32,669 bases of DNA from a virus (IMGVR_UViG_3300031841_001141:1-32669); one strand, 5' to 3'; shown: positions 7,732 to 31,828, counted from the stretch's first letter. Made by a program: numbers and translations. Notes: generated by a model from the sequence alone, not told the origin.

Positions 7732-8730
7732 TTAAATAACGCCTGTTATAACGCCATGGTATTCTGCTGGACCTTTGTCCAAACCGATTTCCATGTAAAC
7801 ACGCTTTGATATTGCTGCTGCATCATCATTGTCAGTATCTTCTACGAATACTGCACCCTTGCCTGGGATGTTCAAGAAACAAACATCTAAGTATGCAAGG
7901 TCAAGGACAAATGCTTTAGAAGCTGGAACGAACTCGTTCACAACTAATCCAATGTTACCAAATGGTGTAACGATTGTATCAATGTTTACACCAGCGACAT
8001 TTCTGTCTCTTGGTAATACTGCCATTTGCAAGTTACCTGCTGCTGCTAATCCTTGGTTTAAGTCAAGGATAGAAGCTGGTCTTGCGAATAGAACAGGGTT
8101 TTGCATTGGAGCACCATTATCATACATAGCTTTAAGAATTTCAGCGATTGCATCAAAATCTAATGCTGTATCTGCTGCTGAAACTTGGTTATCAAATGTA
8201 GATGAACCATTACCAGAAGCTACCCACTCATCAATGCCACGCATTTCTCTTGGGTTACCATCTGTTCCATCATTGAAAGTTGCATTGAAAAACTCGTATT
8301 CAACTTCTCTTGCAATTTTGGATAATAGCTCTTCTATTTGGAAAGCCATTTCATCATTAACTGGGTTAGTACCTTCAAATGCTGCTGTACCACTCTCCAT
8401 AGCTTGTGAGTTCAAATATCCTGTTGAACCTAGAGCAGAGTATGTTAATTTCACACCTTGGTTCCAGATTTGTACACAGTCTATTGCAGAACTTCTGCTT
8501 CTTCCAAAGTAAGTTGGTGTTCCACCTTCAGCTAGAGCTGTGTAGCCACTAACTGTTGGGGTATCAACTTTTTGTGTTTGAAAGACTGGGGAGTTAAGAA
8601 GTTTACCACCTGTTAAACCACCCACCATGGATAGTAGAGGTGTTCTTCTAGCACCAACTTTAAATAGTTCGCCAGTAAAATTGTTAATCTCACTAACTGA
8701 GATTGGGTCTGGGCTGCCTATTGCTGCCAT
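7732..8730 (-). CDS. Major capsid protein (332 aa)
   Basis: This forms the icosahedral shell. Sequence signs are an N-terminal arm (INNFTGELFKVGARRTPLLS), a central E-loop-like region, a helix with EELLSKIAREVEYEFFNATF, and a C-terminal beta-rich P-domain-like segment. The features resemble the HK97-fold group with SU10-type capsids, though this subgroup call is tentative. It follows a scaffold gene, which fits. The ribosome binding site AGGAGAT is near ideal. The gene ends with three tandem in-frame TAA codons. Compared with neighbours it uses more C-ended codons (AAC, TTC), as expected for the most abundant protein. I see no N-terminal protease-delta domain. Confidence 0.85.
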   Translation of the reverse strand: MAAIGSPDPISVSEINNFTGELFKVGARRTPLLSMVGGLTGGKLLNSPVFQTQKVDTPTVSGYTALAEGGTPTYFGRSRSSAIDCVQIWNQGVKLTYSALGSTGYLNSQAMESGTAAFEGTNPVNDEMAFQIEELLSKIAREVEYEFFNATFNDGTDGNPREMRGIDEWVASGNGSSTFDNQVSAADTALDFDAIAEILKAMYDNGAPMQNPVLFARPASILDLNQGLAAAGNLQMAVLPRDRNVAGVNIDTIVTPFGNIGLVVNEFVPASKAFVLDLAYLDVCFLNIPGKGAVFVEDTDNDDAAAISKRVYMEIGLDKGPAEYHGVITGVI

Positions 8731-15457: not shown

Positions 15458-16413
15458 TATCTCTTAACACCTGCTCTCATAAGATTAGCTAAGTCTGCTA
15501 CTGTAGCTGCACCTCTACTTCTATCAGCTTCAAACTCTTGTTGTTGTCTAGCTGCTTCTTCTCTAGGTGCAAATACTTCTTCTTCTATACCTGCTAAATC
15601 TTCTTCAAGCTGTTCTGCATCTGGTTGCTCTGCTGGTGTACCAGGTATTACTGTTCCACCCATAGGTGTTGATGGGTCAAATGCTATTCTTCCTGGTGTA
15701 CCACCTGCAAGTCCTGCAACTTCTTCATTAAATAAACCTATTCTTGCACCTATCTTTTGTGTAATATATTCTTTCTCTTCTTGTGATAATGGAGCTCCCT
15801 TTCTTGATTTAGACTTAGCTAATAAGTCATCTACTAAATCATCTAGTTGCTCGTTCTCAATCTTAGGTGCTTTTGTTGTAGCAGCTTTCCTTACAGAAAA
15901 ATCTGTTCTAAGTATTCCTAAACTCTGTACCCAGTCAAACTTACCACCATTGTTCATACTAAACTCCATAAGTCTTGTAATACCTTTAACAAATTCTTCA
16001 TCTACCATAGAACCTTGTGTCTTAGTTAAGTCAATTAAACCTATGCTTGACATTTGATTTTTTAATATAATACGAAGTGATGGTGCTATATCTCTAGCTA
16101 CCTCTCCTGGCATATAAGGAAAATAAATAAACTTATAACCTTTATCTGTTAGGTATTCTTCTGCATCTACATCTACTGTTCTAGTTACAGGAAACCCTTT
16201 AGCTTTATCCATACCAGTAACTTCCATCTGGTATTTACTTTGGAAACCTTCTCCTAGTGGTCTTTTGTTATCTAAATCGCCACTAAGTAAATCTACTACC
16301 CATTGTGTTGCAGTATCTGCACTATCTGGTGTAACATCTGTACCAGGAATAATAGGTCCTGTAACTCCTCCTACACCTCTAGGTAATGTGTAACCTTTTG
16401 TATCTTCACTCAT
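15457..16413 (-). CDS. Virion-associated hypothetical protein (318 aa)
   Basis: The N-terminal 30 residues are Gly/Pro-rich and flexible (YTLPRGVGGVTGPIIPGTDV). The centre is compact and mixed (YKFIYFPYMPGEVARDIAPS). The C-terminal 70 residues run from a Pro-rich patch (GTVIPGTPAEQPD) into a strongly charged helix (QLEEDLAGIEEEVFAPREEA), likely coiled coil. No catalytic motif is seen. It lies between the giant 2068-aa gene (8-nt overlap) and the lysozyme-like gene, so a role in the same internal assembly is inferred. Confidence 0.6.
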   Translation of the reverse strand: MSEDTKGYTLPRGVGGVTGPIIPGTDVTPDSADTATQWVVDLLSGDLDNKRPLGEGFQSKYQMEVTGMDKAKGFPVTRTVDVDAEEYLTDKGYKFIYFPYMPGEVARDIAPSLRIILKNQMSSIGLIDLTKTQGSMVDEEFVKGITRLMEFSMNNGGKFDWVQSLGILRTDFSVRKAATTKAPKIENEQLDDLVDDLLAKSKSRKGAPLSQEEKEYITQKIGARIGLFNEEVAGLAGGTPGRIAFDPSTPMGGTVIPGTPAEQPDAEQLEEDLAGIEEEVFAPREEAARQQQEFEADRSRGAATVADLANLMRAGVKR

Positions 16414-19400
16414 CTGCTAAATCTCCTATACCAAACTTAGTAATCTCATTATAAAACACATCATTAAACACAGGTAGAAATTCTGGAGTTTCTTCAATTA
16501 GTGTTGCACCATATCTATATAACTCATCACGAACTGCTTGTGCTTCCTGTGAAGTCTGTGTTCTTAACCATATAATAGCATCTTCTCTAAGTGGTATCTC
16601 TTTACCTACTTGTATTCCTTCTAATACACTGTTTCTATAATCTAAGTATTTAGACATAGGTTCGTATAAACCTAGCTGTTTAAACCGAGTATCTTCTATA
16701 GCTTGTTCTAGTATTGGTATAACTAAATCCCAATCAAAGCTATCTGGTATCTCTTTACCTGGTAACTTAGTAGCTACTTCTGCTGGGTCCACTTGATATG
16801 CTAATGGGAACATCTTTCTTAATGTAAGTTCTAGTTCTGCTTTCTCTATCTTTTGCTCATTAGGACTATATCTTTGTGCATCCCACTTAGCTGCTGCTCT
16901 TTCCATCATTGCTCTTTCTACTAATGATGCTGCGTATGTAGCAGAACGCCAGTAAAACTCTTCTTTATTTAATGGTGTTATGTTACCTAATCCTTTTTGT
17001 ATTCCATAAGATGTGTAATCTACTTCGCCACTACCTAGCTTGTCATAGAAATACAGTATGCTAGAACCATAATCTTCATACAACTCTTTGTTATCTAACA
17101 AGAACTTATACTCTGGCTTTGTTCTAGCCATAGGTCCACTCTCTGATATAGACTTACCTTTTAGCTGTAATGATGCAGATGTAAATGCTGTTTCCATATC
17201 GTATATATCTAGTCCTAGTAACCTAACTACTTCTAATGTAGCTTCATAATCTGCTTGTTTACTACCCATAGTTAGTGCATAGTGTTCTCTTAGGTCTTGG
17301 TAAAAACCATGTATTATTCCTAGCTCAACAAAGCTATTCCATACAACACCAGATGTTTCATTGTCTTTACCATACCAATCGTTAAATGTATCGTTATCTG
17401 TATCTATACGATATAACACATTTAGTTTAGGAACTAATGGATTAACATTTCTATCCCATGCTTTTAGTTGGAATATGTTATCTCGTATAACTGCTGCTGT
17501 ATTAAACATAAACTCTGGGTCATCTGCTTGTTCTGGGTATAGCATTGCAGCTATCTGTACAGCTTGTGTAGTAGCTGTCTGGTATAAATCCTCATCAAAA
17601 CCTTTAACACCTAACTTACTTGCGATAGCGTTAAACATATTCTTACCAGTAGCTGGTATTGTTTCTTCTAATACTGCTTCTCCAATTAAATCTTTAATAT
17701 CTCCAGTACCACTTTCAAATGGCAAACCAAATTGGAATATAGTTCTTTCTAACAACCTTCTAGTTTCTGGATTATCTCTAGTCATTGCACCAAGTGGTAA
17801 AGCTACAACTGGTCCTAATGGTGGGAATAAACCACCACCAGCTACACCTAATGCTGATATAGGTAAACTTCTTTTAAGTATTATATTGCTATCTTCTATA
17901 CTTATGTCATCTCTCCAGGTACCTTCTCCTTCTGATTTAACATAACTTTCTAAAGCTGTACCACCTACAGGTATAATTAAATATCTTTCTCCAAACTTAT
18001 CAGAATATATATAGTTGTTTTCTATACCTTTCCTATATGCAAAACTTACCTGTGCTAATGCTCTAGGGTTTGCTGCACCTAGTTGTGTCCATCTACCTAA
18101 CACTTCTCTATATGCTTCAAAAAAAGGTAATCCTACTTTGTATGCTTCTGCTAGGTAACCTCTTTCTAGTAAGTTATACAACAATCTATTATGCAACTCT
18201 AGTGCGTATTGTGATGCTGTTTTGTTTATGTCATTAAATGTCATATTGCGTACAGTGTCTGTTCTAATATCATCTAGGTCTAACATTGTGTGATAATCAA
18301 TCTCTGTAAACTCTGATATTAAACCACTCTTCTGTGCATTATTAACTACTAACTTTCCAGACTTACTATCTACCATTGCAAGTATTCCAGACCTTTGCAT
18401 AAACTCTGCGACATCATCATACTTAGCATTACCCATGCCTAACACTTTCCTAAGTTCTTTTATAGTTGGTGTAGGGTTTTCTTTTATTAATGCTTTAAAG
18501 TTATTTGTTATATCAAATGTATTTTTACCTGTATCTGCATGTAATTCTTTTAATGCTTTAATAAATTGTTGGTCTTGTGATTTATCTAATTTACCATCTA
18601 CTAATACATTTCTTCTAGGAACTGATGAATAGTATGCACCTATCTTTGTATTCTCATCTCCTAATCTAATACCTCCTGCTGTTTCTATAGAGTATGCTTT
18701 ACCTTCTGCATTGTTTAGTAACAAGTCCATTTCTAACTGTTGTTTAGATGTAGCTTGTAATACTCTTGGTGCATATTTATTATCTGCATTGTAAGCAACA
18801 AATGTAACAGCATCATCAGTAACTTGTAATCTCTGTCGTACTGCTTTCTTCATTACTTCTTCTATTTGCTCAAATGGTATTTCTGCATCTGTAAGATTTC
18901 TTTTAACTGATGCAAGTAAATCTGCTGGTAAATTAACTACACTCTCTGGGTCATAATGTGCATCTAATATATCTTGTAAACCTTTGCGTGTAGCAAACAC
19001 TAAGTTGCTTTCTATAAAGTGATAGTATGCTTGTTTAAATGTTGGTATTCGTGATAGTGATGCTTCTGCTTGACCAGCTACAAAGAACAACGCATCCATT
19101 AAATCTGCCCATCCTTGTGCAAATCCTTTACCTGTAACTTTCTTTACACCTGGTACTTCAAATGGTAAATCTTCTAGTACTTCTAGCATGTATGGTGTAA
19201 TGGTTTCTTTTATCTTCTTTTTGTTTATTTGCTTTGCAACATCTAAACTTCTTACATTTGTTTTACCAACCATACCTTGTGCAATAACATCTAGTAGGTC
19301 TTGTTGATTAGCAGTAAAATTAGATATAAACATCTTGTGATGTCTAACAAAATCTATAAAATCTTCTTGTGTTTTAACAACTGGTATAACTTGTGATGCT

Positions 19401-22400
19401 TTATCTACGCTTCTAATAGATAATGTCTTTCTGTTTAAATCTACAATCTCATCCATAAGATATGGTGTTCTCTGTATTAAATCTACAACTTCTGCATCAC
19501 TAAGGTTTTTCTTCATAGCTTGTGCTACAACTGGCATAAATGGGTCATGTGCCATCTGTGTAATTAGATAGTCTATATACGCTTCTACATAGTTGTCATC
19601 AACATCTAGCTTTGTAGCTCCTGGTGCTACTTCTTCTCCAGTTGCATACTTAGGTATCTGTTCCCAGTCTCCTCTGTTTTTTCTAAATACAGATGTAAAG
19701 CGTGGGTCTCTTTCATACAAGTCTTGTACTTCTGGTAATCCAAACTTAGAATTGTTTTGTTTTAACGCACCTAAACTTTTTCTTATAAAGTCTGGGTACT
19801 TCTCATCTAATACTTTTGCACTTGTTCTAAATGGTCCTGTTAGTGCAGTTAATGGTTTATAGTCTGGGTTTTGTGCTTGTATTAATTTAACCATTGCACC
19901 ATTTGGGTCGTTCCATATTAGCTTTAAATACTCCCATGGGTCTCTAAATATAGATGCTAAACCTCTAGCTGACATCCTTAAATTACCATCTGTTGTAATT
20001 TTAAGTGGGAAAGCTAATCGTGTAATAAGCTGTAGTGGCATCCACGCTCTACTAATAAAAGTAAATGCCATATCTGTAGCTTTAAATGGTATTCTTTCTG
20101 CACCATACTTAAATAATACTGATGGGTCTTTTAGTCCATCTGCTATCGCACCTTTGAGTTCACGACCTAATGGTGTAGATGGGTCAAAGAAAGTACCTGC
20201 TTTACCTTCATTAGCTGCTTGTCTAACTGCATCTATGCTTTCTTCATAACCATTTTTTCTAAATGTTTTGTTTCTTAATCTTCTACGCATAGATGTGTAA
20301 CGCAATGTAGCTTTTATATCTGGTACATTGATTGTCAAATCCATAGCTTGACCTGCCATAGCTAATGTATTTTGTATAGCAGCAGCTTTATCTGTTTCTG
20401 ATAACATAGCATTGTTTAGTTGTGCTCTGCTTATAGGGTCTAATCCATCTTGTAACAACTGTCTATCATAAAACTGTTCACTTAATGTAGGTTTATATGC
20501 TCTACCTTTTTCACTAAATCCTCTCACATCATCTAGATGTGTAGATAAGAAATCTGTTATCTCATTGTCTGACAAACCAAATACATATCGTAGTTGTAAT
20601 GCACCTTCTGTTTTAATTAACTTGTCATAAAATACTTCTTGTGCTCCTCTATAGTTTTTATTAAATATCTCTGTATAAAATTCTTTTACTAAATCATCAA
20701 TCTTGTTTTCTGGTATAGAAAACATATACCCTGTTTTAATAAAAGTATCTACTGCTCTATCTACTTCTGTAAGATAAGCCCATGGTCTTGATGGTAGTCT
20801 TGGGTCTGTACCACCGAATACATCTTTAAAACTAGAAGCTAATGTTCTTACTGGGTTCTTAGACTTTCTACCACCACCACGCATATAAGTAGCTGTATAT
20901 TGACTATCTGTCATAGCAGCATACATGTTATCTAAAAAGTTATCGTTTAATACTTTTGCTTGTATATGAAAATCATTAGCACTTGTTAAGTTATTACCTG
21001 CAAATCTAACATCAGATACTAAACCACCAGTCAAACTTTCTTTTATTATGTCAAATGTTTGGTCTGGGTTATTAACAACTTTCATAGCCATGTTAGGACT
21101 AAACCCATTTCGTGATAGATATAGCATAACTGGAGCACCTTCATCTACAGCTTTAGTTATTTCATCTGCCATAAGTTGTATTGTTGTATCTTTATCTATC
21201 CAAAAATCTGCTGCTTTACCACCTGCTTGTATGTATTCATCTAGTTCTCTACCTACGCTTGTAAGTGTTTTACTTGTTTGTGCAGACCTACCACCTATAC
21301 CTACGCCTGGTAAAACAAATGTTGGGTCTGTAACTACCATTAGTCCTAAGTTACCCATAAATCCTATCCATGCGTTCCAACCATGTTTAGGGTCAAAGTT
21401 TAAATCTGATATTTTATCTTGTTCTGCTGATAGCAAAGCATTAAATTTAGTTTCAAACTCTTGGTCTGTCATACCAGTTGTTTGATATGTATTAACTAAA
21501 TTAGCTATTTCGCCTTCTGTTTCTATTTTTATATCTGCAATTACATTGTTAAGTGGACTGTATTCTCCACCTAATGAACCTGTAAGTGTATATCTAATCA
21601 TATCTCCAGGTGTTGCAGGTATGCTATATTTCTTGAAACCTTCTCTAGTTTGCATTGCTTCTTGAAAATATTCATTGCTACCAAAGTATGTCTCTATACC
21701 ATTAGGATTAGCAGAACCATACAACTGATTAACTGTATCTATATACGCATCTAATCTTTCTTGTGTAGTTGGTTCTCTAGTTTCTCCATCTTGTTGTATC
21801 TTTAAGTTCTCTGCATATACGCTAGGAAAATATTTATTTATAGTATCTATATCTGTTTGTGCTAATTTAAAATCTTTTTTTGTATTTAAGTAAGTTAAGT
21901 TATCTGTAACAGCAAGTGGTGCTAGGTTTAATACTGTCTCTGGCAAATCCCAACCATATCTTTTACCTTGTGATAATGCACCCCTAACAGCTCCTGCTTT
22001 TAACCCAGCAACAAAAGATTTAAGTTTCCAAGATAAAGGTATCTCATTATCTTCTGTCTCTGGGTCTCCAACAAACCTAGAAAAATCTCTATCTAACTCT
22101 TTACCTTGTTCTCTAGCTAATTTTTCTAACTCTGCTTTACTAGCAACACCATAAGAGTTTATAGCTCCTACTTGAAATCTTTGATACCAAGCGTTAAGAC
22201 CAACTAATAAACCATTAATAGCTGTACTTTTTCTTAACTGACTTTCTCCAAATAATTCTTTTTGTGTTTCAGTATTAACTTGTTTAGTTTTTGTATATGC
22301 TTCTTTAGCTCTATCCCAATAACTTTGTGTTCTTTTTCTGTTGTAATCTTCTTTTTCATCTGCAATATTATTGTTAGTTTCTTTCCATAAGTTGTAATAC

Positions 22401-22612
22401 TCTCCTGCACTTAATCCCATAGATGCAGCAGCAATAGGTAAATCACTATCTTCATTTGGGTTCATTGATTGAAAATCTAATGTTTTCTTACCTAGTATTT
22501 CTAACTCTGCATCAGACATAGTGTTCTTAGCTGTGTTAAGTGCTTGTTGGTCTATGCCTTTTTCCTCTTGGGATTTAAGCCACTCTTGACCCCATCTCAA
22601 ATAAAAGTTCAT
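16406..22612 (-). CDS. Giant virion protein (2068 aa), function unknown
   Basis: This is the longest gene, about 19% of the window. It is uniformly coding with no frameshift. The protein is largely helical, with a basic-hydrophobic patch at about residues 850-910 (SRAWMPLQLITRLAFPLKI, then RMSARGLASIFRDPWEYL). A hydrophobic Gly/Pro-rich stretch lies at about 1575-1605 (LPISALGVAGGGLFPPLGP, VVALPLGAM). I see no transglycosylase, protease or polymerase motif I would trust. In podovirus-type phages proteins of 1000-3500 aa in this position are ejected with the DNA (T7 gp16, N4 vRNAP), so an ejection protein is the best inference. The ATG overlaps the upstream stop as TAATG. Confidence 0.7.
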   Translation of the reverse strand: MNFYLRWGQEWLKSQEEKGIDQQALNTAKNTMSDAELEILGKKTLDFQSMNPNEDSDLPIAAASMGLSAGEYYNLWKETNNNIADEKEDYNRKRTQSYWDRAKEAYTKTKQVNTETQKELFGESQLRKSTAINGLLVGLNAWYQRFQVGAINSYGVASKAELEKLAREQGKELDRDFSRFVGDPETEDNEIPLSWKLKSFVAGLKAGAVRGALSQGKRYGWDLPETVLNLAPLAVTDNLTYLNTKKDFKLAQTDIDTINKYFPSVYAENLKIQQDGETREPTTQERLDAYIDTVNQLYGSANPNGIETYFGSNEYFQEAMQTREGFKKYSIPATPGDMIRYTLTGSLGGEYSPLNNVIADIKIETEGEIANLVNTYQTTGMTDQEFETKFNALLSAEQDKISDLNFDPKHGWNAWIGFMGNLGLMVVTDPTFVLPGVGIGGRSAQTSKTLTSVGRELDEYIQAGGKAADFWIDKDTTIQLMADEITKAVDEGAPVMLYLSRNGFSPNMAMKVVNNPDQTFDIIKESLTGGLVSDVRFAGNNLTSANDFHIQAKVLNDNFLDNMYAAMTDSQYTATYMRGGGRKSKNPVRTLASSFKDVFGGTDPRLPSRPWAYLTEVDRAVDTFIKTGYMFSIPENKIDDLVKEFYTEIFNKNYRGAQEVFYDKLIKTEGALQLRYVFGLSDNEITDFLSTHLDDVRGFSEKGRAYKPTLSEQFYDRQLLQDGLDPISRAQLNNAMLSETDKAAAIQNTLAMAGQAMDLTINVPDIKATLRYTSMRRRLRNKTFRKNGYEESIDAVRQAANEGKAGTFFDPSTPLGRELKGAIADGLKDPSVLFKYGAERIPFKATDMAFTFISRAWMPLQLITRLAFPLKITTDGNLRMSARGLASIFRDPWEYLKLIWNDPNGAMVKLIQAQNPDYKPLTALTGPFRTSAKVLDEKYPDFIRKSLGALKQNNSKFGLPEVQDLYERDPRFTSVFRKNRGDWEQIPKYATGEEVAPGATKLDVDDNYVEAYIDYLITQMAHDPFMPVVAQAMKKNLSDAEVVDLIQRTPYLMDEIVDLNRKTLSIRSVDKASQVIPVVKTQEDFIDFVRHHKMFISNFTANQQDLLDVIAQGMVGKTNVRSLDVAKQINKKKIKETITPYMLEVLEDLPFEVPGVKKVTGKGFAQGWADLMDALFFVAGQAEASLSRIPTFKQAYYHFIESNLVFATRKGLQDILDAHYDPESVVNLPADLLASVKRNLTDAEIPFEQIEEVMKKAVRQRLQVTDDAVTFVAYNADNKYAPRVLQATSKQQLEMDLLLNNAEGKAYSIETAGGIRLGDENTKIGAYYSSVPRRNVLVDGKLDKSQDQQFIKALKELHADTGKNTFDITNNFKALIKENPTPTIKELRKVLGMGNAKYDDVAEFMQRSGILAMVDSKSGKLVVNNAQKSGLISEFTEIDYHTMLDLDDIRTDTVRNMTFNDINKTASQYALELHNRLLYNLLERGYLAEAYKVGLPFFEAYREVLGRWTQLGAANPRALAQVSFAYRKGIENNYIYSDKFGERYLIIPVGGTALESYVKSEGEGTWRDDISIEDSNIILKRSLPISALGVAGGGLFPPLGPVVALPLGAMTRDNPETRRLLERTIFQFGLPFESGTGDIKDLIGEAVLEETIPATGKNMFNAIASKLGVKGFDEDLYQTATTQAVQIAAMLYPEQADDPEFMFNTAAVIRDNIFQLKAWDRNVNPLVPKLNVLYRIDTDNDTFNDWYGKDNETSGVVWNSFVELGIIHGFYQDLREHYALTMGSKQADYEATLEVVRLLGLDIYDMETAFTSASLQLKGKSISESGPMARTKPEYKFLLDNKELYEDYGSSILYFYDKLGSGEVDYTSYGIQKGLGNITPLNKEEFYWRSATYAASLVERAMMERAAAKWDAQRYSPNEQKIEKAELELTLRKMFPLAYQVDPAEVATKLPGKEIPDSFDWDLVIPILEQAIEDTRFKQLGLYEPMSKYLDYRNSVLEGIQVGKEIPLREDAIIWLRTQTSQEAQAVRDELYRYGATLIEETPEFLPVFNDVFYNEITKFGIGDLADE

Positions 22613-23200: not shown

Positions 23201-24950
23201 CTGGTACTCCTGGTGGTATTCCTGGACCTGCTGCTAATTGTTCTGGTCCACCTAACTGTGCAAGTACAGAAGCAATGTCTGGTTCTGCTGGAGCTTGTGC
23301 TTGTGCAGCTACCTCTTGTGCCTGTACTTCTTCTTCTGTATAAAACTCATCTAGTATTTGTGTCATGTTCTGTGGATTTTTTCTAATTTCTTTAGCTGCA
23401 AGACTTGCTTTGATGTTACCTTGTGCTGCTTGTGCCATTAATGCTTCAAATAACACAGTCTCTGCTTTCTCTGCATTTACTCTGTTCTGTATTTGAGATA
23501 TGTTATCTAAACCATCAAGGTTCTCTTGTAATGTTTGCATATCTATTACGCCTTGTTGTTTTAATTGCAACCCTGTAATAATTTTCTGTGGCTCATCAAA
23601 CCCTGCCATAACTCCATATACTCTTCTTGTTTTATATACTTCTGCTATATCAGAGCTAGGTACATAAGTTTCTTTAAACGCTGTACCATTTCTAAATCCT
23701 GCGATAGGTTTACGCATACCACCATACATAACCTCATCCCACTCTAGTCTCTTGCTATCTATTTCTTCTAACGCATCCTTCATTACTGTTTGATATTCTC
23801 TTACATGTAATGATGATGATTGACCTAGTTCCTCTAATCCTCTACCAGTAACAAACGCATTTGGCGATTGTCCATCATCTGCTACAGGATATGCAGAACC
23901 TAAACGCAAGTGTCGTTCTAATCTATCTATCTGTTGGAACAACTGATAAGGTAAGTTGTTTACTGGTTTAGATACTTGACTACCTGGTGTCAAATAGTTT
24001 ACAGCGAACCTACCCTTTCTATATTGTCCACTTTCTATCTCGCCAATGATGTTGGTTTCTGTAAACACAGCATCTTCCATTGCAATGACAGATAGAATAT
24101 TTATTTTCGCCATGTTAGCCATTAAGCCAATAACATGATGAAATTGTCCTTGCATTTGGTCAAAACTATAGCGTTTAGCTATTACAAATCTTGGTCCAGA
24201 TTTAAGTGGATTAGGAATAAAATCTAATATTATTTTGTTTTCTGGTAGAAATACATAAGTACCTTCTTCATCATAGTATTCTGCAACTACTTTACCTGTA
24301 CCATCTGCATTAGCCCAGGTCTTATCATAACTAGATAGATAAGCCATTGTATTGTATTCACTGCTTACTTCATCAAGTATTACACTTGCATGTTTTGGAT
24401 ATTGTCTAGCTAGTGTTGCGTGTGGTACTCGTTGTAATATTGCTAATTCTTTTGGTTCCTGGTCAATACCAAAATGTCCAGGATAACAAAGGTATGGGTC
24501 TCTTAGTTCTGCTACAGGATATGGTATTCCATTAGCATCTTTTTTTTCTTTTAGTACCCATACAGCAAATCCATAACCAGGTAACCATCTACCAGCTTGT
24601 GGTAATTGCTTATCTAGTTTCTGTATGTCATCATACGCAGTTACTATTCTTTCTAGTTTTTCTGCTCTCTTAGTAGCTCTCTCGCTATCCTTGTCGTTAA
24701 ATATATCTACTTTTAAATCTGGTGCTCTACCTATCTTTTGTGCAAATCTTTCTAATGCAGACATAAGTAGGTTAGGTGCTGGTAGTTGTCTGTAATCCAT
24801 ATCTCGCATGTCTTTACCAAGTAATGCTTTTATACCATCTGCACCACCATTAAGTATTGCTCTGATGTTATGTTTATCTTGTGCAAGTTCAGAATTTAAT
24901 TGTCTAAGTTCGTAAACTCTGCTGTAAAGCTCATCTGCTGTTTTTACCAT
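23193..24950 (-). CDS. Portal protein (585 aa)
   Basis: This forms the dodecameric ring at one capsid vertex through which DNA is pumped. Evidence is the position directly after the large terminase, the length, and sequence features of portals: an N-terminal helical region (LYSRVYELRQLNSELAQDKH), a basic wing segment, a beta-rich mid-part (DPYLCYPGHFGI, VVAEYYDEEGTYVFLPE), a long helical segment at residues about 340-420, and a disordered Gln/Ala/Pro-rich tail (AQEVAAQAQAPAEPD). I prefer the ATG at 24950 (MVKTADEL), which has GGAG 6 nt upstream and overlaps the terminase stop as TAATG. A TTG 9 nt further upstream is less likely. Confidence 0.8.
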   Translation of the reverse strand: MVKTADELYSRVYELRQLNSELAQDKHNIRAILNGGADGIKALLGKDMRDMDYRQLPAPNLLMSALERFAQKIGRAPDLKVDIFNDKDSERATKRAEKLERIVTAYDDIQKLDKQLPQAGRWLPGYGFAVWVLKEKKDANGIPYPVAELRDPYLCYPGHFGIDQEPKELAILQRVPHATLARQYPKHASVILDEVSSEYNTMAYLSSYDKTWANADGTGKVVAEYYDEEGTYVFLPENKIILDFIPNPLKSGPRFVIAKRYSFDQMQGQFHHVIGLMANMAKINILSVIAMEDAVFTETNIIGEIESGQYRKGRFAVNYLTPGSQVSKPVNNLPYQLFQQIDRLERHLRLGSAYPVADDGQSPNAFVTGRGLEELGQSSSLHVREYQTVMKDALEEIDSKRLEWDEVMYGGMRKPIAGFRNGTAFKETYVPSSDIAEVYKTRRVYGVMAGFDEPQKIITGLQLKQQGVIDMQTLQENLDGLDNISQIQNRVNAEKAETVLFEALMAQAAQGNIKASLAAKEIRKNPQNMTQILDEFYTEEEVQAQEVAAQAQAPAEPDIASVLAQLGGPEQLAAGPGIPPGVPVG

Positions 24951-26878
24951 TATCTCCAACTATCCAAATCTATGCCTAGTCCTTCGTAGTTACTAAAACT
25001 AGGTTGGTATTCCATACCCATTGTAGCAAGTCTTTCCTTTTGTAAACGCCTTATTGTTTTCATTGGAAACCAACTTGCCATAACAATGTCAGATTTAGTA
25101 CCTACACTTCTACTCTTGTTTTGAGCAGAACTAAAATATACTAACTGACTTCTGTATAAGTTTACCTTCTCTTGTGCTTCAAAGCTACGATAAGGTAAAT
25201 TTATTAGTTTATTAGCAAACAATGGTCTCATAGCTGTAACACCATAGATAGGGTCATGCTTGTTACCATAAGTCTGTGTACCTTCTAAAAATATACCATG
25301 CTTTGCTGCAAACTCTCTAATTGATTTATCTTGTCTTATTGCTCGTTGAAAACCATTTTCTTCTATAACCCAATGTGCAAGATTGTATTTAGTAAACCAT
25401 TTTTGCATAATCTCTAATGCTTTAGGAATACCACCACCTAATGAGTTTTCCATATCTATCATATACAAAGTATCTTGTTCCTGGTTATAACCCCATAAGA
25501 ACGCAGCTTGGTACCCTGTTGATGATGGGTCAAGACCTGCAATTAATCGTACATTGTGTGGTATGTGTCCTATATCTCTACCCTGGTCTCTGCATTGTTC
25601 TATCTCTTCTGCATCAAACAAACTCATACCATCTGGCATTGCTACATTAAGATAAACCATTTCGTATATAGCTCTACCACCTGTAGTTTCAGCAGCTTTC
25701 TTTCTATCCATTAACCACTTGTATGTACGCTTACTAGCCCATAACATACAGTCTTGGTGTGCTTCGTTTTCCCAATCAGACTTAGTACAAGCTATATCGT
25801 GTGCTTGTTCTACTGTTGTACTCCAGCTTTCGTTATCTACTAAGTGCGAATACAAATCATCATAATGCTGCCTAGAACCAATAACTACCATAGCTGTATG
25901 TTCCTCTTTACGACTAGATAATGTTGTAGTCCACCAGTTTCTTGTGTTCTCTCTTGATGCTGGTTGCATAGTAGAACTGTGGTCCTCAATGTCATCAGCA
26001 ATAATAATATCGCAGTCTCTTGATAAAATCTTACCACCTCTACCAATACCAATCATTGTTGGAGATTTAATACCTGTAACTGTTCGTGTACCTACAGTAA
26101 AACCATTTTGAGACCAAGACTTAGATGATTTTGTTTTAGGTTTAAACTTTGCTCCAGGACCACATATCTCTTCTATAAGTAACTCGTTATTTTCTAACTG
26201 GTCCATTACAGAAGATACAGAGTTCTTAGCAATATCTTCGTTACCACCTACCCACATAATTCTTATGTTTGGGTTATTGCATATAAGCCATACTACAAAA
26301 TGTATAAGCAGCTCTGTTTTACCATGTCTAGGTGGGCTAAGTATCATGTGCTGTCCACCATTATCAATAGCATCCATAATGCTTTCTATCCACTTAGTGT
26401 GAAACTCTGGTGTCTCAAATGCAACGCCTTGTTCTGTTCTAAAGTATCGTTGTCTAAACTCGTTAAAATCTTTTAGTGTTTCTTCTGCTACCTGTGGTAA
26501 TGACCAGTCCTCTTGTTCTTGTTCTGACTTTATATCTTCTAAGTATGCCTGGTACGCCATAGATACAGCAGCAGTTGTAGTGCCAAGTATCTTAGCTACT
26601 TCTGTTAGTGTTATTGATTTTTCGTATATCTCTTGTGCAAGTCCAGATTGTTTAATATCTTCATAAACCTGTCCTCTTCTAGATGCGACATTAGGTTTTT
26701 GTGATGGTATGTCTAAGACATCATCTTCTTGGGTCCACTCTTTACCAGCTTTCCTAGCTCGTTTCTTTTGCTGGTTTATTCTTTCGTAACAACGCTTACT
26801 ACAAAACTTTTTCTTTTTAGGTGGTAATGGTCTATGACATCCTGCTGCGTAACAAAGTTTATTTGCCACGCTTATCAC
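24950..26878 (-). CDS. terL: Terminase large subunit with N-terminal zinc-finger and HTH extension (642 aa)
   Basis: This is the ATP-driven DNA-packaging motor and nuclease. The motor has Walker A SPPRHGKT (residues 181-188) and Walker B DIIIADDIED (290-299). The RNase-H-like nuclease has likely acidic residues D450 (AGLDPSSTG), E506/E507 (VIEENGFQ) and D597 (KSDIVMAS). In front is an unusual extension: a Cys4 finger (C9, C14, C26, C30, with FCSKRCYERI) and a helix-turn-helix-like segment at about 78-113 (ITLTEVAKILGTTTAAVS). No separate small-terminase gene is visible nearby, so this extension may supply DNA recognition. The start is GTG; another GTG is at 26869 and no ATG is near. The preceding 30-aa ORF overlaps it. 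Confidence 0.9.
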   Translation of the reverse strand: MISVANKLCYAAGCHRPLPPKKKKFCSKRCYERINQQKKRARKAGKEWTQEDDVLDIPSQKPNVASRRGQVYEDIKQSGLAQEIYEKSITLTEVAKILGTTTAAVSMAYQAYLEDIKSEQEQEDWSLPQVAEETLKDFNEFRQRYFRTEQGVAFETPEFHTKWIESIMDAIDNGGQHMILSPPRHGKTELLIHFVVWLICNNPNIRIMWVGGNEDIAKNSVSSVMDQLENNELLIEEICGPGAKFKPKTKSSKSWSQNGFTVGTRTVTGIKSPTMIGIGRGGKILSRDCDIIIADDIEDHSSTMQPASRENTRNWWTTTLSSRKEEHTAMVVIGSRQHYDDLYSHLVDNESWSTTVEQAHDIACTKSDWENEAHQDCMLWASKRTYKWLMDRKKAAETTGGRAIYEMVYLNVAMPDGMSLFDAEEIEQCRDQGRDIGHIPHNVRLIAGLDPSSTGYQAAFLWGYNQEQDTLYMIDMENSLGGGIPKALEIMQKWFTKYNLAHWVIEENGFQRAIRQDKSIREFAAKHGIFLEGTQTYGNKHDPIYGVTAMRPLFANKLINLPYRSFEAQEKVNLYRSQLVYFSSAQNKSRSVGTKSDIVMASWFPMKTIRRLQKERLATMGMEYQPSFSNYEGLGIDLDSWR

Positions 26879-28498: not shown

Positions 28499-28590
28499 AA
28501 ACCATCTGTACCTTGTTTAAACATTTATGAGAAGAAGAGAGGGTGTTAATTAATATCGTAGTTTCCACACAGAAAAAAAAATAAAAAACC

Positions 28591-28645
28591 TGTAACCCTT
28601 TTGTAACCAATGCAGTCAAAGCAGTACAAACACAGAGAGGATATT
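28591..28645 (+). promoter_or_regulatory. Early-gene leader cassette A
   Basis: An A-rich tract is followed by TGTAACCCTTTT (28591-28602), the box AGTCAAAG (28614-28621), ACAAACACAG, a GAGAGGA ribosome binding site and the ATG. This is the most degenerate of the five copies. Its stem is weak (CTG/CAG) and GTAACC is repeated. Confidence 0.6.
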
Positions 28646-29035
28646 ATGAAAGCATATAAAATCAAGAAAACATTAGTACAAGAATATGTTTCCTTTGGAA
28701 GAAATAGAGAGGATGCAATAGCAAACTTTGATTACTCACAAGGGTATGACTTTGAAAGTGTAGAAATCAATGGCGAGAGATTTACAAATGGCGAGGTTTT
28801 AGAAAGTAAGACTACAGCTGTTTCTTTTGGTACAGAAAATATAATTACTTTCCATGAGAAAGATAAATTATTTGCTAACGCTATCTGGTTAAGAAATCAC
28901 GAAGATGACATAAGAGTAAGAGGTTACGACAATGTCATTAAATTTGTTTCTGCAGACCCTATTAAAGATGAAACACAGAAAGAAAAAGTATTAGAGATAG
29001 CAAACACTTATACAAAAATAAGTGAGAGGTATTAA
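28646..29035 (+). CDS. Early protein of unknown function (129 aa)
   Basis: I choose the ATG at 28646, right after GAGAGGATATT, rather than an in-frame ATG 36 nt upstream that lies inside the conserved leader cassette. The product starts MKAYKIKKTLVQEYVSFGRN and has KTTAVSFGTENIITFHEKDK and IRVRGYDNVIKFVSADP. The first 45 residues (RNREDAIANFDYSQGYDFES) suggest a small alpha-beta fold. No motif or membrane segment is visible. It is the first full-size gene of the rightward block, so host takeover or regulation is a fair guess only. Confidence 0.7.
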   Translation: MKAYKIKKTLVQEYVSFGRNREDAIANFDYSQGYDFESVEINGERFTNGEVLESKTTAVSFGTENIITFHEKDKLFANAIWLRNHEDDIRVRGYDNVIKFVSADPIKDETQKEKVLEIANTYTKISERY

Positions 29036-29049
29036 GAAATAATTAAATT

Positions 29050-29107
29050 ACCCTGTAACCTTTTATTAGGTTGCAGGGTCTAAACAATACAAACAAGAAA
29101 GGATATT
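29050..29107 (+). promoter_or_regulatory. Early-gene leader cassette B
   Basis: ACCCTGTAACC (29050-29060) pairs with GGTTGCAGGGT (29069-29079) around an 8-nt loop, one G-U pair in 11. TGTAACCTTTTA is in its left arm and loop. GGTCTAAA overlaps the stem end, and ATACAAACAAG and AAAGGA precede the ATG. Confidence 0.7.
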
Positions 29108-29854
29108 ATGAAACAATTAGAAGCAAAGGTAGAGTTTAAACAAGCTCAATTTCCTAAGAAAGATATTAAACCAGAACAATGGCTTAGTCTCTTAGTGGAT
29201 GAGTGTTTAAACATACTGCAAAGCAAAGGTATCAATACAACCAACAATGTAGGTACAGGTATTGAAATACACATTAGTGATACCAGAGGAAGAAAGCGTG
29301 TAACCAACAGAAATGGTGGGTCTCATGCAGTAGGGCTTTGTTATGGTATTAGCAGCAGTACAGGAAACAAGAGAGTTATAGAGGTTGATAGAGAAACAGA
29401 TAATCTCTGGGATACTATAGACACAGTTGCTCATGAGGTAACACACGCAGTCTTAGAAGAAGGCGTTGGTCATAAGGGTATGTTTCCAGAGATTGTTAAG
29501 AGCGTGTTTAAACTGGGTGGAAAACCAACAGCAACAGAACCAACAGAAGAGATGAAGGAATTGTTTTACGATTTCTTAATTGCAAATGGTGGTTACCCTC
29601 ATGTTGCGTTTAGACCTAGACACAACAAGCAAACAACACGCATGGTCAAATGCTGGTGTACTGAATTTGATTGCCCAGCAGGTACAGAGAAATCAATGCT
29701 GGAAGGCAAAGGTATGATATTTAGAATATCATCAGCAGTGTTAGCACCCAGAATAGATGGTACTGTAATGTTTTACAGAGACATCACTTGCCCAGCGTGT
29801 CAAGCACCAGCAGCGTACGATAAGGAAACAATACCAGAGAGCTTATACTCATAA
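29108..29854 (+). CDS. SprT-like zinc metalloprotease with C-terminal Cys cluster (248 aa)
   Basis: The zincin motif HEVTH (residues 109-113) sits in the helix DTIDTVAHEVTHAVLEEG, and GH at 121-122 gives a likely third zinc ligand (GVGHKGMFPEIVKSVFKLG). The following GGKPTATEP matches the conserved segment of SprT-like proteins common in actinobacteriophages. Residues 182-231 hold CWC, C189 and CPAC (228-231), a probable second zinc site. Cellular Spartan/SprT proteins act on DNA-bound proteins; a similar role in phage DNA metabolism or host-protein removal is inferred. There is no signal peptide, so it is cytoplasmic. The start follows AAGAAAGGA. GTTTAAAC occurs three times inside the gene. 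Confidence 0.8.
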   Translation: MKQLEAKVEFKQAQFPKKDIKPEQWLSLLVDECLNILQSKGINTTNNVGTGIEIHISDTRGRKRVTNRNGGSHAVGLCYGISSSTGNKRVIEVDRETDNLWDTIDTVAHEVTHAVLEEGVGHKGMFPEIVKSVFKLGGKPTATEPTEEMKELFYDFLIANGGYPHVAFRPRHNKQTTRMVKCWCTEFDCPAGTEKSMLEGKGMIFRISSAVLAPRIDGTVMFYRDITCPACQAPAAYDKETIPESLYS

Positions 29855-29861
29855 TATCCAG

Positions 29862-29899
29862 AGAGCTAAGGGGTTGTTTAAACAAGCAACCCCAGCTCT
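29862..29899 (+). terminator. Long hairpin after the metalloprotease gene
   Basis: AGAGCT, two unpaired A, and GGGGTTG pair with CAACCCC and AGCTCT (13 bp) around a loop containing GTTTAAAC. An A-run rather than a U-run follows, so intrinsic termination is doubtful. Its right arm shares CTCT with the stem of cassette C, so the two structures exclude each other. Confidence 0.55.
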
Positions 29900-29962
29900 T
29901 AAAAAAAAGGTGTAACCTTTTTGGATAAGAGTAAGTCAAAGTAATAACAAAGAAAGAAGGAT
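29896..29962 (+). promoter_or_regulatory. Early-gene leader cassette C
   Basis: CTCTTA (29896-29901) pairs with TAAGAG (29926-29931). Inside, AAAAAGGT can pair with ACCTTTTT. TGTAACCTTTTT is at 29911-29922, AGTCAAAG at 29934-29941, and AGAAGGA precedes the ATG at 29963. Confidence 0.7.
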
Positions 29963-30889
29963 ATGAAAGAAGAAATAAAACAAACAGTAACTAAAGGCGA
30001 AGCAGTAGATATTGCTGATGCAGAGTTATTCAACGAGACAGTCAAAGGTGTAGATTATTCTGGTAATCAACCAAGACATCAAGGTAGCGAGATATATAAC
30101 AAAGCATACAAGCCAAAGAAAGAAGCAGTAGATAGAAGCAGTTTAAACAACAAGATAACCTGCGACAACATACGAGGATGGGGCGACAACTTGTACAGTA
30201 GATTGTATGTAGATGGCGACAGATATGGCGAAGGTGTAAGAGTTGTTGGTTACTCTTCCTATGTACCAGAAAGAAATAGCAAAGGCGACAGGCGACCTAG
30301 CGAACAGTCTGGGTTTTCTATTTACTTTGATGATGAGCAGCAGGTTATTGAATTTGCACAGAAGTGTTTAGATACAATGGCTATCAAGAAAGAACGAGAG
30401 TATTTGTTTGAACAGTATGATGGTAAGCACCCAGATGTTTATAATCACTTTCCAAATATGTTGGACAGAACAATGTGTGAGACAGGTAGGTATTACTGGG
30501 ATGCTAGTTTAAACAAGGTAGTAGAGATTACCAAAGATACTGATGCAGAAATCTTAGAGCTGCACCCAGAGTACAGGACTGATGATGAAGGAAACTTTGA
30601 GCAGAGCTGGACTAATGAGAAGGCAGAAGATAAGCTCAAAGGATTGCTTAGAGGTCAAGAGTGTAACTGGACAGGGGATGACTACATGGACATCAACCTT
30701 GCTAACTTACAGACAGGTGGGTACTACACAGATGGACTTGTTGCTAGGAAAGTACGCAACCCAGAGGACAAGAGAAGAAAGATGTGGATAACAACCTTCT
30801 TCTATGTTGATGGTACAGAAACAACCTTAGAAGGTAAGTGGGATTTACTAGGGGATGGAACTCTTAGAAGATTGACATGGAAAGAATAG
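29963..30889 (+). CDS. Early protein of unknown function (308 aa)
   Basis: The largest gene of the rightward block in this window. The product is hydrophilic, rich in Asp, Glu, Lys and Tyr, and has no membrane segment. Visible segments are ITCDNIRGWGDNLYSRLYVD (about 66-85), SGFSIYFDDEQQVIEFAQKC (about 116-135), and a C-terminal beta-rich WITTFFYVDGTETTLEGKWD. I recognise no catalytic motif. The first 60 residues look disordered. It has its own leader cassette and is followed at 8 nt by GTTTAAAC. Codon use matches its neighbours. Function unknown. Confidence 0.7.
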   Translation: MKEEIKQTVTKGEAVDIADAELFNETVKGVDYSGNQPRHQGSEIYNKAYKPKKEAVDRSSLNNKITCDNIRGWGDNLYSRLYVDGDRYGEGVRVVGYSSYVPERNSKGDRRPSEQSGFSIYFDDEQQVIEFAQKCLDTMAIKKEREYLFEQYDGKHPDVYNHFPNMLDRTMCETGRYYWDASLNKVVEITKDTDAEILELHPEYRTDDEGNFEQSWTNEKAEDKLKGLLRGQECNWTGDDYMDINLANLQTGGYYTDGLVARKVRNPEDKRRKMWITTFFYVDGTETTLEGKWDLLGDGTLRRLTWKE

Positions 30890-30915
30890 AGGGATTGTTT
30901 AAACAAGGTAAAAAA

Positions 30916-30973
30916 CTGTGTAACCTTTTTGGTTACACAGTAGTCTAAGCAACAGATAAGAAAGGAAAGTAAT
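30916..30973 (+). promoter_or_regulatory. Early-gene leader cassette D
   Basis: This is the clearest copy. CTGTGTAACC (30916-30925), loop TTTTT and GGTTACACAG (30931-30940) make a perfect 10-bp stem. AGTCTAAG is at 30942-30949 and AAGAAAGGAAAG precedes the ATG at 30974. Confidence 0.75.
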
Positions 30974-31291
30974 ATGGCATTTATGGGTACTAACAATTTA
31001 CCAAAACCAGAAGAAGTTAAGAGGTGTCAATTTGGTGGCACTAACAACAGAAAGAAAGATGGTGGTTGTGGTAAGCATGTAGAAAAAACAGGGCAGATGG
31101 TACATAGTAGAACTGATGGCAGCACTTGGCATGTTTGGTTTCATCTAAATTATTGTGAGGAACACAGACATCATGTTGAAGGCGAGTACGAAAGACTAAT
31201 GGAACACACAAGAAAAGGTTTGTTTGTTGGGGATGGAAATTTCTGGGCAGATAAAGAGAAGGAAAACTACCCAGAAAGACAGGTTGTTTAA
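30974..31291 (+). CDS. Small Cys/His-rich early protein (105 aa)
   Basis: The product starts MAFMGTNNLPKPEEVKRCQF and has C18, CGKH at about 33-36, and HLNYCEEHRHHVEGEYERLM with one Cys and several His. This spacing suggests a zinc-binding fold, perhaps a small HNH-like or treble-clef domain, but the HNH signature itself is not present. GTTTAAAC overlaps its stop codon, and the next gene starts 2 nt later, so the pair is probably translated together. Confidence 0.65.
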   Translation: MAFMGTNNLPKPEEVKRCQFGGTNNRKKDGGCGKHVEKTGQMVHSRTDGSTWHVWFHLNYCEEHRHHVEGEYERLMEHTRKGLFVGDGNFWADKEKENYPERQVV

Positions 31292-31293
31292 AC

Positions 31294-31545
31294 ATGGTAA
31301 CTAAAACTAACTACAACCAGATACTTATTGATGAGGTTAAGGAAGCAGCACAGGCAACTGATGTTATGGAAATCAATAACCCTCGTGTCATAGGCATGGT
31401 CATCAATCTATTAGAGATGCTAGAGAGAGAGCCAAGCATACCAAGAAAGACATACAACTACATCAAGGTAATTGTATTAGCCAGTGTCAAAGTATTTGGT
31501 AGGAAAGATGTGGACAGTAGCTTGTTAGATGAGCTAACTGTTTAA
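31294..31545 (+). CDS. Small helical early protein (83 aa)
   Basis: The product is almost all helix: ILIDEVKEAAQATDVMEINN, VIGMVINLLEMLEREPS and YNYIKVIVLASVKVFG. No Cys or catalytic motif is present. There is no clear ribosome binding site, as expected for coupling to the gene ending 2 nt upstream. The stop TAA lies in a GTTTAAAC palindrome. A small protein-binding or DNA-mimic role is possible but unsupported. Confidence 0.65.
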   Translation: MVTKTNYNQILIDEVKEAAQATDVMEINNPRVIGMVINLLEMLEREPSIPRKTYNYIKVIVLASVKVFGRKDVDSSLLDELTV

Positions 31546-31558
31546 ACAAAGAAAAAAA

Positions 31559-31609
31559 AGTATGTAACCTTTTTCATACTAAAGAAGTCTAAGTAATAGA
31601 AAGGAAGAT
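31559..31609 (+). promoter_or_regulatory. Early-gene leader cassette E
   Basis: AGTATG (31559-31564) and CATACT (31575-31580) pair around a loop that is exactly TAACCTTTTT. AGTCTAAG is at 31586-31593 and GAAAGGA precedes the ATG at 31610. An A-run lies just upstream. Confidence 0.7.
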
Positions 31610-31828
31610 ATGGATATAAAAACAAGACAAGTCAAACTTAACTTTGAAGTAGAAGTTGATGTTGATTTGTATGTACTAGAAACACTATGTAGAGAAATCA
31701 ATTCTGTTAAAGAAGATATTGTACAACCAATAGTAAAAGACATAGAACATAAATCTATTGATGACCATTGGGTAGTAAAAGTTGTAAGGGCAACTCAACT
31801 ATTAGAGAAGCCAATAGAAAGGACATAA
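31610..31828 (+). CDS. Small early protein (72 aa)
   Basis: The product starts MDIKTRQVKLNFEVEVDVDL and is acidic, with an N-terminal beta strand and a central helix (YVLETLCREINSVKEDIVQ). The C-terminal segment HWVVKVVRATQLLEKP is amphipathic. Function is unknown. It opens a run of three genes joined by TAATG overlaps. Confidence 0.65.
   Translation: MDIKTRQVKLNFEVEVDVDLYVLETLCREINSVKEDIVQPIVKDIEHKSIDDHWVVKVVRATQLLEKPIERT

Follow-up and report, generated by a model that had tools for sequence, protein, structure and literature searches.

The window analyzed here, meaning the whole stretch of DNA under study, is a virus record from IMG/VR of 32,669 bases, and all positions are counted on it. 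Its minus strand carries structural and packaging genes, among them those for the terminase large subunit and the major head protein, and its plus strand carries small genes from 28.6 kb to the end. We call these small genes presumed early genes on the basis of their position and strand. Five cassettes of common design, all on the plus strand, precede five of them and are listed here as putative promoters 1 to 5.

7732-8730, minus strand: major head protein gene
24950-26878, minus strand: terminase large subunit gene
28572-28588, plus strand: A-rich, UP-element-like block of putative promoter 1 (A-rich columns directly before TGTAACC are also seen across 65 dereplicated sites)
28591-28597, plus strand: putative −35 element TGTAACC, promoter 1
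28614-28620, plus strand: putative −10 element AGTCAAA, promoter 1 (predicted +1 at 28626; gene start at 28646)
28646-29035, plus strand: presumed early gene 1, which promoter 1 would serve
29050-29079, plus strand: hairpin ACCCTGTAACCT/AGGTTGCAGGGT over putative promoter 2
29054-29060, plus strand: putative −35 element TGTAACC, promoter 2
29077-29083, plus strand: putative −10 element GGTCTAA, promoter 2 (predicted +1 at 29089; gene start at 29108)
29108-29854, plus strand: presumed early gene 2 (phrog_6361), which promoter 2 would serve
29911-29917, plus strand: putative −35 element TGTAACC, promoter 3
29934-29940, plus strand: putative −10 element AGTCAAA, promoter 3 (predicted +1 at 29946; gene start at 29963)
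29963-30889, plus strand: presumed early gene 3, which promoter 3 would serve
30915-30941, plus strand: hairpin ACTGTGTAACC/GGTTACACAGT over putative promoter 4
30919-30925, plus strand: putative −35 element TGTAACC, promoter 4
30942-30948, plus strand: putative −10 element AGTCTAA, promoter 4 (predicted +1 at 30954; gene start at 30974)
30974-31291, plus strand: presumed early gene 4, which promoter 4 would serve
31294-31545, plus strand: 83-aa ORF of the WE(V/I)NNPRV family, in the putative unit of promoter 4
31563-31569, plus strand: putative −35 element TGTAACC, promoter 5
31586-31592, plus strand: putative −10 element AGTCTAA, promoter 5 (predicted +1 at 31598; gene start at 31610)
31610-31828, plus strand: presumed early gene 5, which promoter 5 would serve

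Three further features of the window deserve mention. A gene for a 2068-aa protein without a Pfam or PHROG match lies among the structural genes (16406-22612, minus strand). Read on the minus strand, the hairpin of cassette 4 (30915-30941) is a good match to an intrinsic terminator, with 11 pairs and a T5 tail. Finally, the palindrome GTTTAAAC occurs at 21 sites in the window against 1.1 expected (for example, at 28515, 29134, 29205, 29876, 30897, 31286, 31540, and 32260). There are about 30 copies of it in each of the records G008, G013, and G027 and 0 or 1 in G026, G030, G022, G025, and G019, and it is the most frequent gene-upstream motif in some relatives that lack the cassette; it is possibly an operator or a replication or partition site.

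A first-pass annotation of this DNA had proposed that five early genes share one upstream layout, and we recovered the five sites independently. A weight matrix whose only training data were 38 sites from an unrelated phage family (G026, G030, and G033) scored the five window sites at 43.9, 38.4, 37.4, 34.8, and 28.6 bits, against a best score of 13.6 elsewhere in the window and a top score of 16.4 in 200 shuffles. The five cassettes are genuine and stand far above chance. The annotation was also right that the start codon lies 24 to 32 nt after the box (the −10 element in the list), which holds for all five when counted from the start of the box; its consensus AGTC(T/A)AA fits cassettes 1, 3, 4, and 5 but not cassette 2, where the box is GGTCTAA.

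The cassettes share one grammar: an A-rich block, TGTAACC with a T-tract, a gap of 15 or 16 nt, AGTCTAAGTA, and a T followed by a purine whose distance from the A of AGTC is 12 nt. With this purine taken as +1, the first base of TGTAACC is at −35 and that of AGTC at −12. TGTAACC is exact in 178 of 195 cassettes, accompanied by a −10 of the AGTCTAA type, and the gap between TGTAACC and AGTC is 15 or 16 nt in 191 of the 195, equivalent to 16 to 17 bp after TGTAAC. Two marks of an ECF promoter are thereby present, namely, an AAC-core −35 paired with a GTC-type −10 and a −35/−10 spacer of 16 to 17 bp. When sites are chosen by TGTAACC-N15/16-AGTC alone, they still display the A-rich block, the T-tract, and TAAGTA-T-A. 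In the 65 dereplicated sites, picked by TGTAACC-N16-AGTC alone, the two A's after AGTC(T/A) are invariant, GTA comes next in most, a T-tract lies behind TGTAACC, and an A-rich block lies in front. Position by position in 110 dereplicated cassettes, there is a purine at offset 12 from the A of AGTC in 99 and a T at offset 11 in 78. Even among TGTAACC sites that lack the full T5 tract, AGTC stands at a distance of 15 in 9 cases and of 16 in 44, against 0 to 2 at nearly all other distances (distance 5, with 14, being the exception).

As far as these searches reach, two groups of uncultured phages, unrelated to each other, carry the cassette, with up to about 20 copies per genome. Viral contigs scanned for TGTAACCTTTTT...AGTCWAA yielded 113 stretches, of which many are true cassettes and some are chance matches within genes. 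TGTAACC-N15/16-AGTC was found in 36 records with up to 15 copies per record, confined to one strand in 35 of them (G039 has one on each strand), and the reversed pattern, used as a control, gave 3 matches in total. The matrix located 20 sites in G026, around a dozen in G030, and 0 in shuffles; in ten relatives (terminase identity of ~74 to 80%), its sole find was a weak site in G008. When the regions upstream of genes were searched de novo for dyads, moreover, the cassette motif came first in G026, G030, and G033. The motif-bearing set was first gathered by pattern, so that fully diverged variants would escape it, and many of its records are fragments; that these phages seem mostly marine is an impression from the collection.

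What follows the box differs among cassettes. In 86 of the 110, a Shine-Dalgarno sequence and a start codon lie 20 to 54 nt past it. In six related P-loop (AAA_33/Zeta-like) kinase genes (L228, L238, L242, L250, L255, and L259), the ATG falls exactly at position 12 and the Shine-Dalgarno sequence is absent, so that a leaderless mRNA starting there is to be expected. Together with the purine at fixed offset, these leaderless ATGs suggest that +1 lies at offset 12. Other cassettes precede no gene: at L057, L089, and L119 a G+C-rich stem and T-run follow directly without an ORF, and at L034, L109, and L113 the cassette leads into noncoding sequence. The terminator-like stems at the former three loci would delimit candidate noncoding RNAs of ~50 nt. 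At four loci (L034 10973, L076 183, L263 2567, and L230 9584), a sigma-70-like promoter stands directly after the cassette and before the gene; its elements (TTTGCAT/TTTCACA ... TGATATAGT/TGATAAAGT) would make these loci tandem promoters of two classes.

The stems, which the first-pass annotation had placed at the center of its reading, are real in part. Its claim that the arms compensate each other is borne out over the whole set of 110 dereplicated cassettes, where true arms compared with swapped arms give a z of −7.6 and none of 300 swaps is as stable, but strong hairpins (≤ −8 kcal/mol) are limited to 18 of the 110. Within this strong-stem subset, the −35 box itself supplies an arm, TGTAACC pairing with GGTTGCA or GGTTACA, and the flanking bases change in concert; some of the cassette hairpins have UUCG loops. 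In the window, the strong-stem class includes cassettes 2 and 4, whereas the folding energy of cassette 1 is 0.0 kcal/mol. In neither 2 nor 4 is there the fixed loop that had been described, as TGTAACC lies in the stem arm of both (ACCCTGTAACCT/AGGTTGCAGGGT and ACTGTGTAACC/GGTTACACAGT). The stems proposed for cassette 3 (CTCTTA/TAAGAG) and cassette 5 (AGTATG/CATACT) are broken in the closest relatives, L122, L054, L046, and L063, so that two of the four window stems are not kept by covariation across homologous leaders. Between window cassette 2 and L124, the stem is displaced by 3 nt with the −35/−10 spacing unchanged, and the predicted start lies downstream of the stem. An Rfam search gave no match. 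Mismatches on the plus strand are G-U in 14 cases and A-C in 3, which hints at RNA; one recurrent T-G pair dominates this excess, and avoidance of a second −35 box on the opposite strand would yield the same bias. We also considered the hairpin as a minus-strand terminator and rejected this, given a T-rich tail in only 7 of 18 cases and a G-U bias that favors the plus strand.

Bacterial genomes carry the same core motif as well. A blind scan of ~85,000 prokaryote genomes for TGTAACCTTTTN11/12AGTCTAA returned 63 stretches, from Bacteroidota, Bacillaceae, Lachnospiraceae, Geobacter, and others. Among 50 next-downstream genes examined, sigma-70 region 4 was found in nine and region 2 in eight. 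An ECF gene on the same strand, starting between −1.1 and +0.7 kb from the motif, was present at 19 of the 63 loci, the arrangement that autoregulation of an ECF sigma gene would produce, and an ECF gene lay elsewhere in the same 483 kb at only four loci. The 63 loci include near-duplicates (two from Tenacibaculum, two from Aminicenantes, and several of the Alistipes type), so the independent cases are fewer, and they come from several phyla. The extended form with AGTCTAAGTA had 0 matches in a long-pattern scan of the ~85,000 genomes, and for this reason the cognate sigma factor may have a specificity unsampled among them.

We consider it probable, at roughly 0.86, that every cassette is a promoter for an ECF-type sigma factor, a reading based on the motif grammar, the fixed spacing, the strand bias, the leaderless starts, and the bacterial copies adjacent to ECF genes. 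The A-rich block would serve as an UP element and TGTAACC, with the T-tract behind it, as the −35; after the gap of 15 to 16 nt, AGTCTAA(GTA) would be the −10, and transcription would begin at the purine 12 nt past the A of AGTC, so that the mRNA would have either a short leader containing a Shine-Dalgarno site or no leader at all. An RNA polymerase with an ECF-family sigma factor would in this manner transcribe a regulon of 5 to 20 early units, all on one strand. In the minority of cassettes with a hairpin over the −35 and spacer, the hairpin would be transcribed solely through read-through from upstream. We infer the activity of the cassettes, the exact +1, and the timing from the DNA itself. 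Against this reading, the extended form had no match in the ~85,000 genomes, a promoter does not require covarying hairpins, and ECF regulons are usually small and stress regulated, which would make reliance on one unusual for a phage. Broadly, the outcome agrees with the earlier suggestion of a phage translation- or transcription-control module, in which a promoter was named as a possibility. It does not agree with a structured RNA leader as the common principle, which is poorly supported given a spacing that is fixed regardless of the stem and the leaderless starts.

Such a leader, in which a transcribed hairpin and box would govern translation or stability of the downstream gene, would account for the covarying arms of the set, the strong hairpins and occasional UUCG loops, and the plus-strand excess of G-U over A-C mismatches. 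We nevertheless regard it as very improbable, since most copies are stemless and keep the 15/16-nt spacing all the same, leaderless genes start right past the box, copies without an ORF exist, and the window stems of cassettes 3 and 5 do not persist in relatives. Hairpins in some copies could also be taken as a sign of a phage single-subunit RNA polymerase, perhaps one like the N4 virion enzyme, which recognizes promoters with hairpins; the unannotated 2068-aa protein among the structural genes would be a candidate. This deserves hardly any credence: the cassette has two blocks whose distance varies between 15 and 16 nt, the middle between them is not conserved, most copies lack a strong hairpin, a search with PF00940 (run without a positive control) gave no match, and homologs of the 2068-aa protein are also found in cassette-less phages. 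That the cassettes form an array of repressor operators, stoperator-like, rather than promoters would fit their many copies per genome in one orientation and the inverted repeats in some of them, but the conserved parts are nonpalindromic, the distance to gene starts is promoter-like, and the bacterial copies adjoin ECF sigma genes, all of which makes an array highly implausible.

Returning to the ECF promoter reading, there is the matter of which factor would recognize the cassettes. A phage-encoded ECF-like sigma of the 7-11 or phiEco32 type did not come to light in our searches. Pfam sigma regions 2 and 4, searched in 33 records, gave nothing over the cutoff in any cassette-bearing phage, nor did a home-made ECF profile find a sigma factor in these phages. 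When 378 protein clusters were compared with ECF sigma factors, profile against profile, the best result was a 30% probability over 34 columns, whereas the control, the sigma factor of phage 7-11, was found at 96.7%. G025, which is apparently complete (terminal repeat of ~430 bp), has four cassettes and no sigma factor. Two sets of apparent matches were discarded: a weak Sigma70_r4_2 match in G026 is an HTH resembling those of resolvases or terminase small subunits, and the sigma-domain matches in G015 and G018 are in phages without cassettes. No protein was common to most records of both cassette families and absent from cassette-less ones, and a search for host clues turned up no tRNA, no WhiB, and no close cultured relative.

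Because no cassette-bearing phage carries a recognizable sigma factor, the factor seems somewhat more apt to be the host's than the phage's. A host ECF sigma is the simplest reading, and a phage factor of another type is the main alternative. We found no phage that uses host ECF sigma factors in the literature searched. The fuller proposition, that two unrelated phage groups base their early regulons on a host ECF sigma with the covarying hairpin as a second layer of control, we advance only tentatively. The alternative of a non-sigma phage protein that redirects host RNA polymerase, which is a variant of the promoter reading rather than an alternative to it, appears unlikely. One candidate is the 83-aa WE(V/I)NNPRV protein, whose family is present in 12 cassette-bearing records and in 0 of 10 cassette-less ones of the same phage group. 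However, the family is absent from the unrelated cassette-bearing family of G026, G030, and G033, the protein's predicted three-helix fold has no significant structural match, shared host or ancestry could account for the co-occurrence, and the cassette motif already resembles a plain ECF promoter. NNPRV is invariant in this family, which has no Pfam, PHROG, or fold match.

The phages known to have ECF-type promoters, phiEco32 and 7-11, bring their own sigma factor. If the present reading is true, up to 20 promoters without a recognizable phage sigma would mean an early program hung on a host stress sigma factor, and infection would be tied to host physiology and to envelope or stress signaling. 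It would also offer a handle for naming hosts, namely, a bacterium whose ECF sigma reads TGTAACC/AGTCTAAGTA. Many environmental phage contigs gain annotations from this reading, for putative early units, leaderless genes, and candidate small RNAs, and what looked like an RNA motif becomes a promoter open to test.

Known bacterial promoters provide a close likeness. Bacillus subtilis SigX recognizes TGTAAC/CGWC (PMC12153292), the ECF16 promoter is tGTAACc-N16-CGAA with a start 6 bp past the −10 (PMC3420878), and Acinetobacter SigAb tolerates a spacer of 16 or 17 bp, with both the spacer T-run and the upstream A/T element mattering (PMC12153292). The cassettes resemble these three in their TGTAAC(C)-type −35, 16/17-bp spacer, GTC-type −10, spacer T-run, and A/T-rich upstream element, and differ from them in the extended phage −10 (AGTCTAAGTA), in having 5 to 20 copies per small genome, and in the covarying hairpin that a minority of phage cassettes carry.

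Among phages, Salmonella phage 7-11 has late promoters of the form GTAAtg-(16)-aCTA, which its own sigma factor, SaPh711_gp47, recognizes (PMC8948821). As in the cassettes, a two-block promoter (GTAA...(16)...CTA) is reused before several phage units. Its transcription start lies 6 to 9 bp from the −10, as would the start predicted for the cassettes, and the sigma factor is ECF-like, as we propose here. The window sites differ in serving putative early-type genes with no sigma factor found, in a −35 of TGTAACC plus T-tract, and in a gap that is 1 to 2 bp longer. The middle and late promoters read by phiEco32 gp36 are likewise phage promoters of the ECF-like-sigma type, but they consist of a single element, tAATGTAtA, without a −35, and the sigma factor is phage encoded (PMC8948821). 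The first-pass annotation had instead drawn its parallel to the start-associated sequences (SAS/ESAS) of cluster K mycobacteriophages, which are also one-orientation repeats upstream of phage genes with inverted repeats at a subset (PMC3203893). That parallel does not hold: the SAS is a 13-bp element of unrelated sequence that overlaps the ribosome-binding site itself, and GGGATAGGAGCCC at the ribosome-binding site with 17-bp upstream inverted repeats (PMC3203893) was not what we found here. The cassette box, unlike the SAS, lies 24 to 32 nt upstream of the start codon in the window and can serve leaderless or noncoding units.
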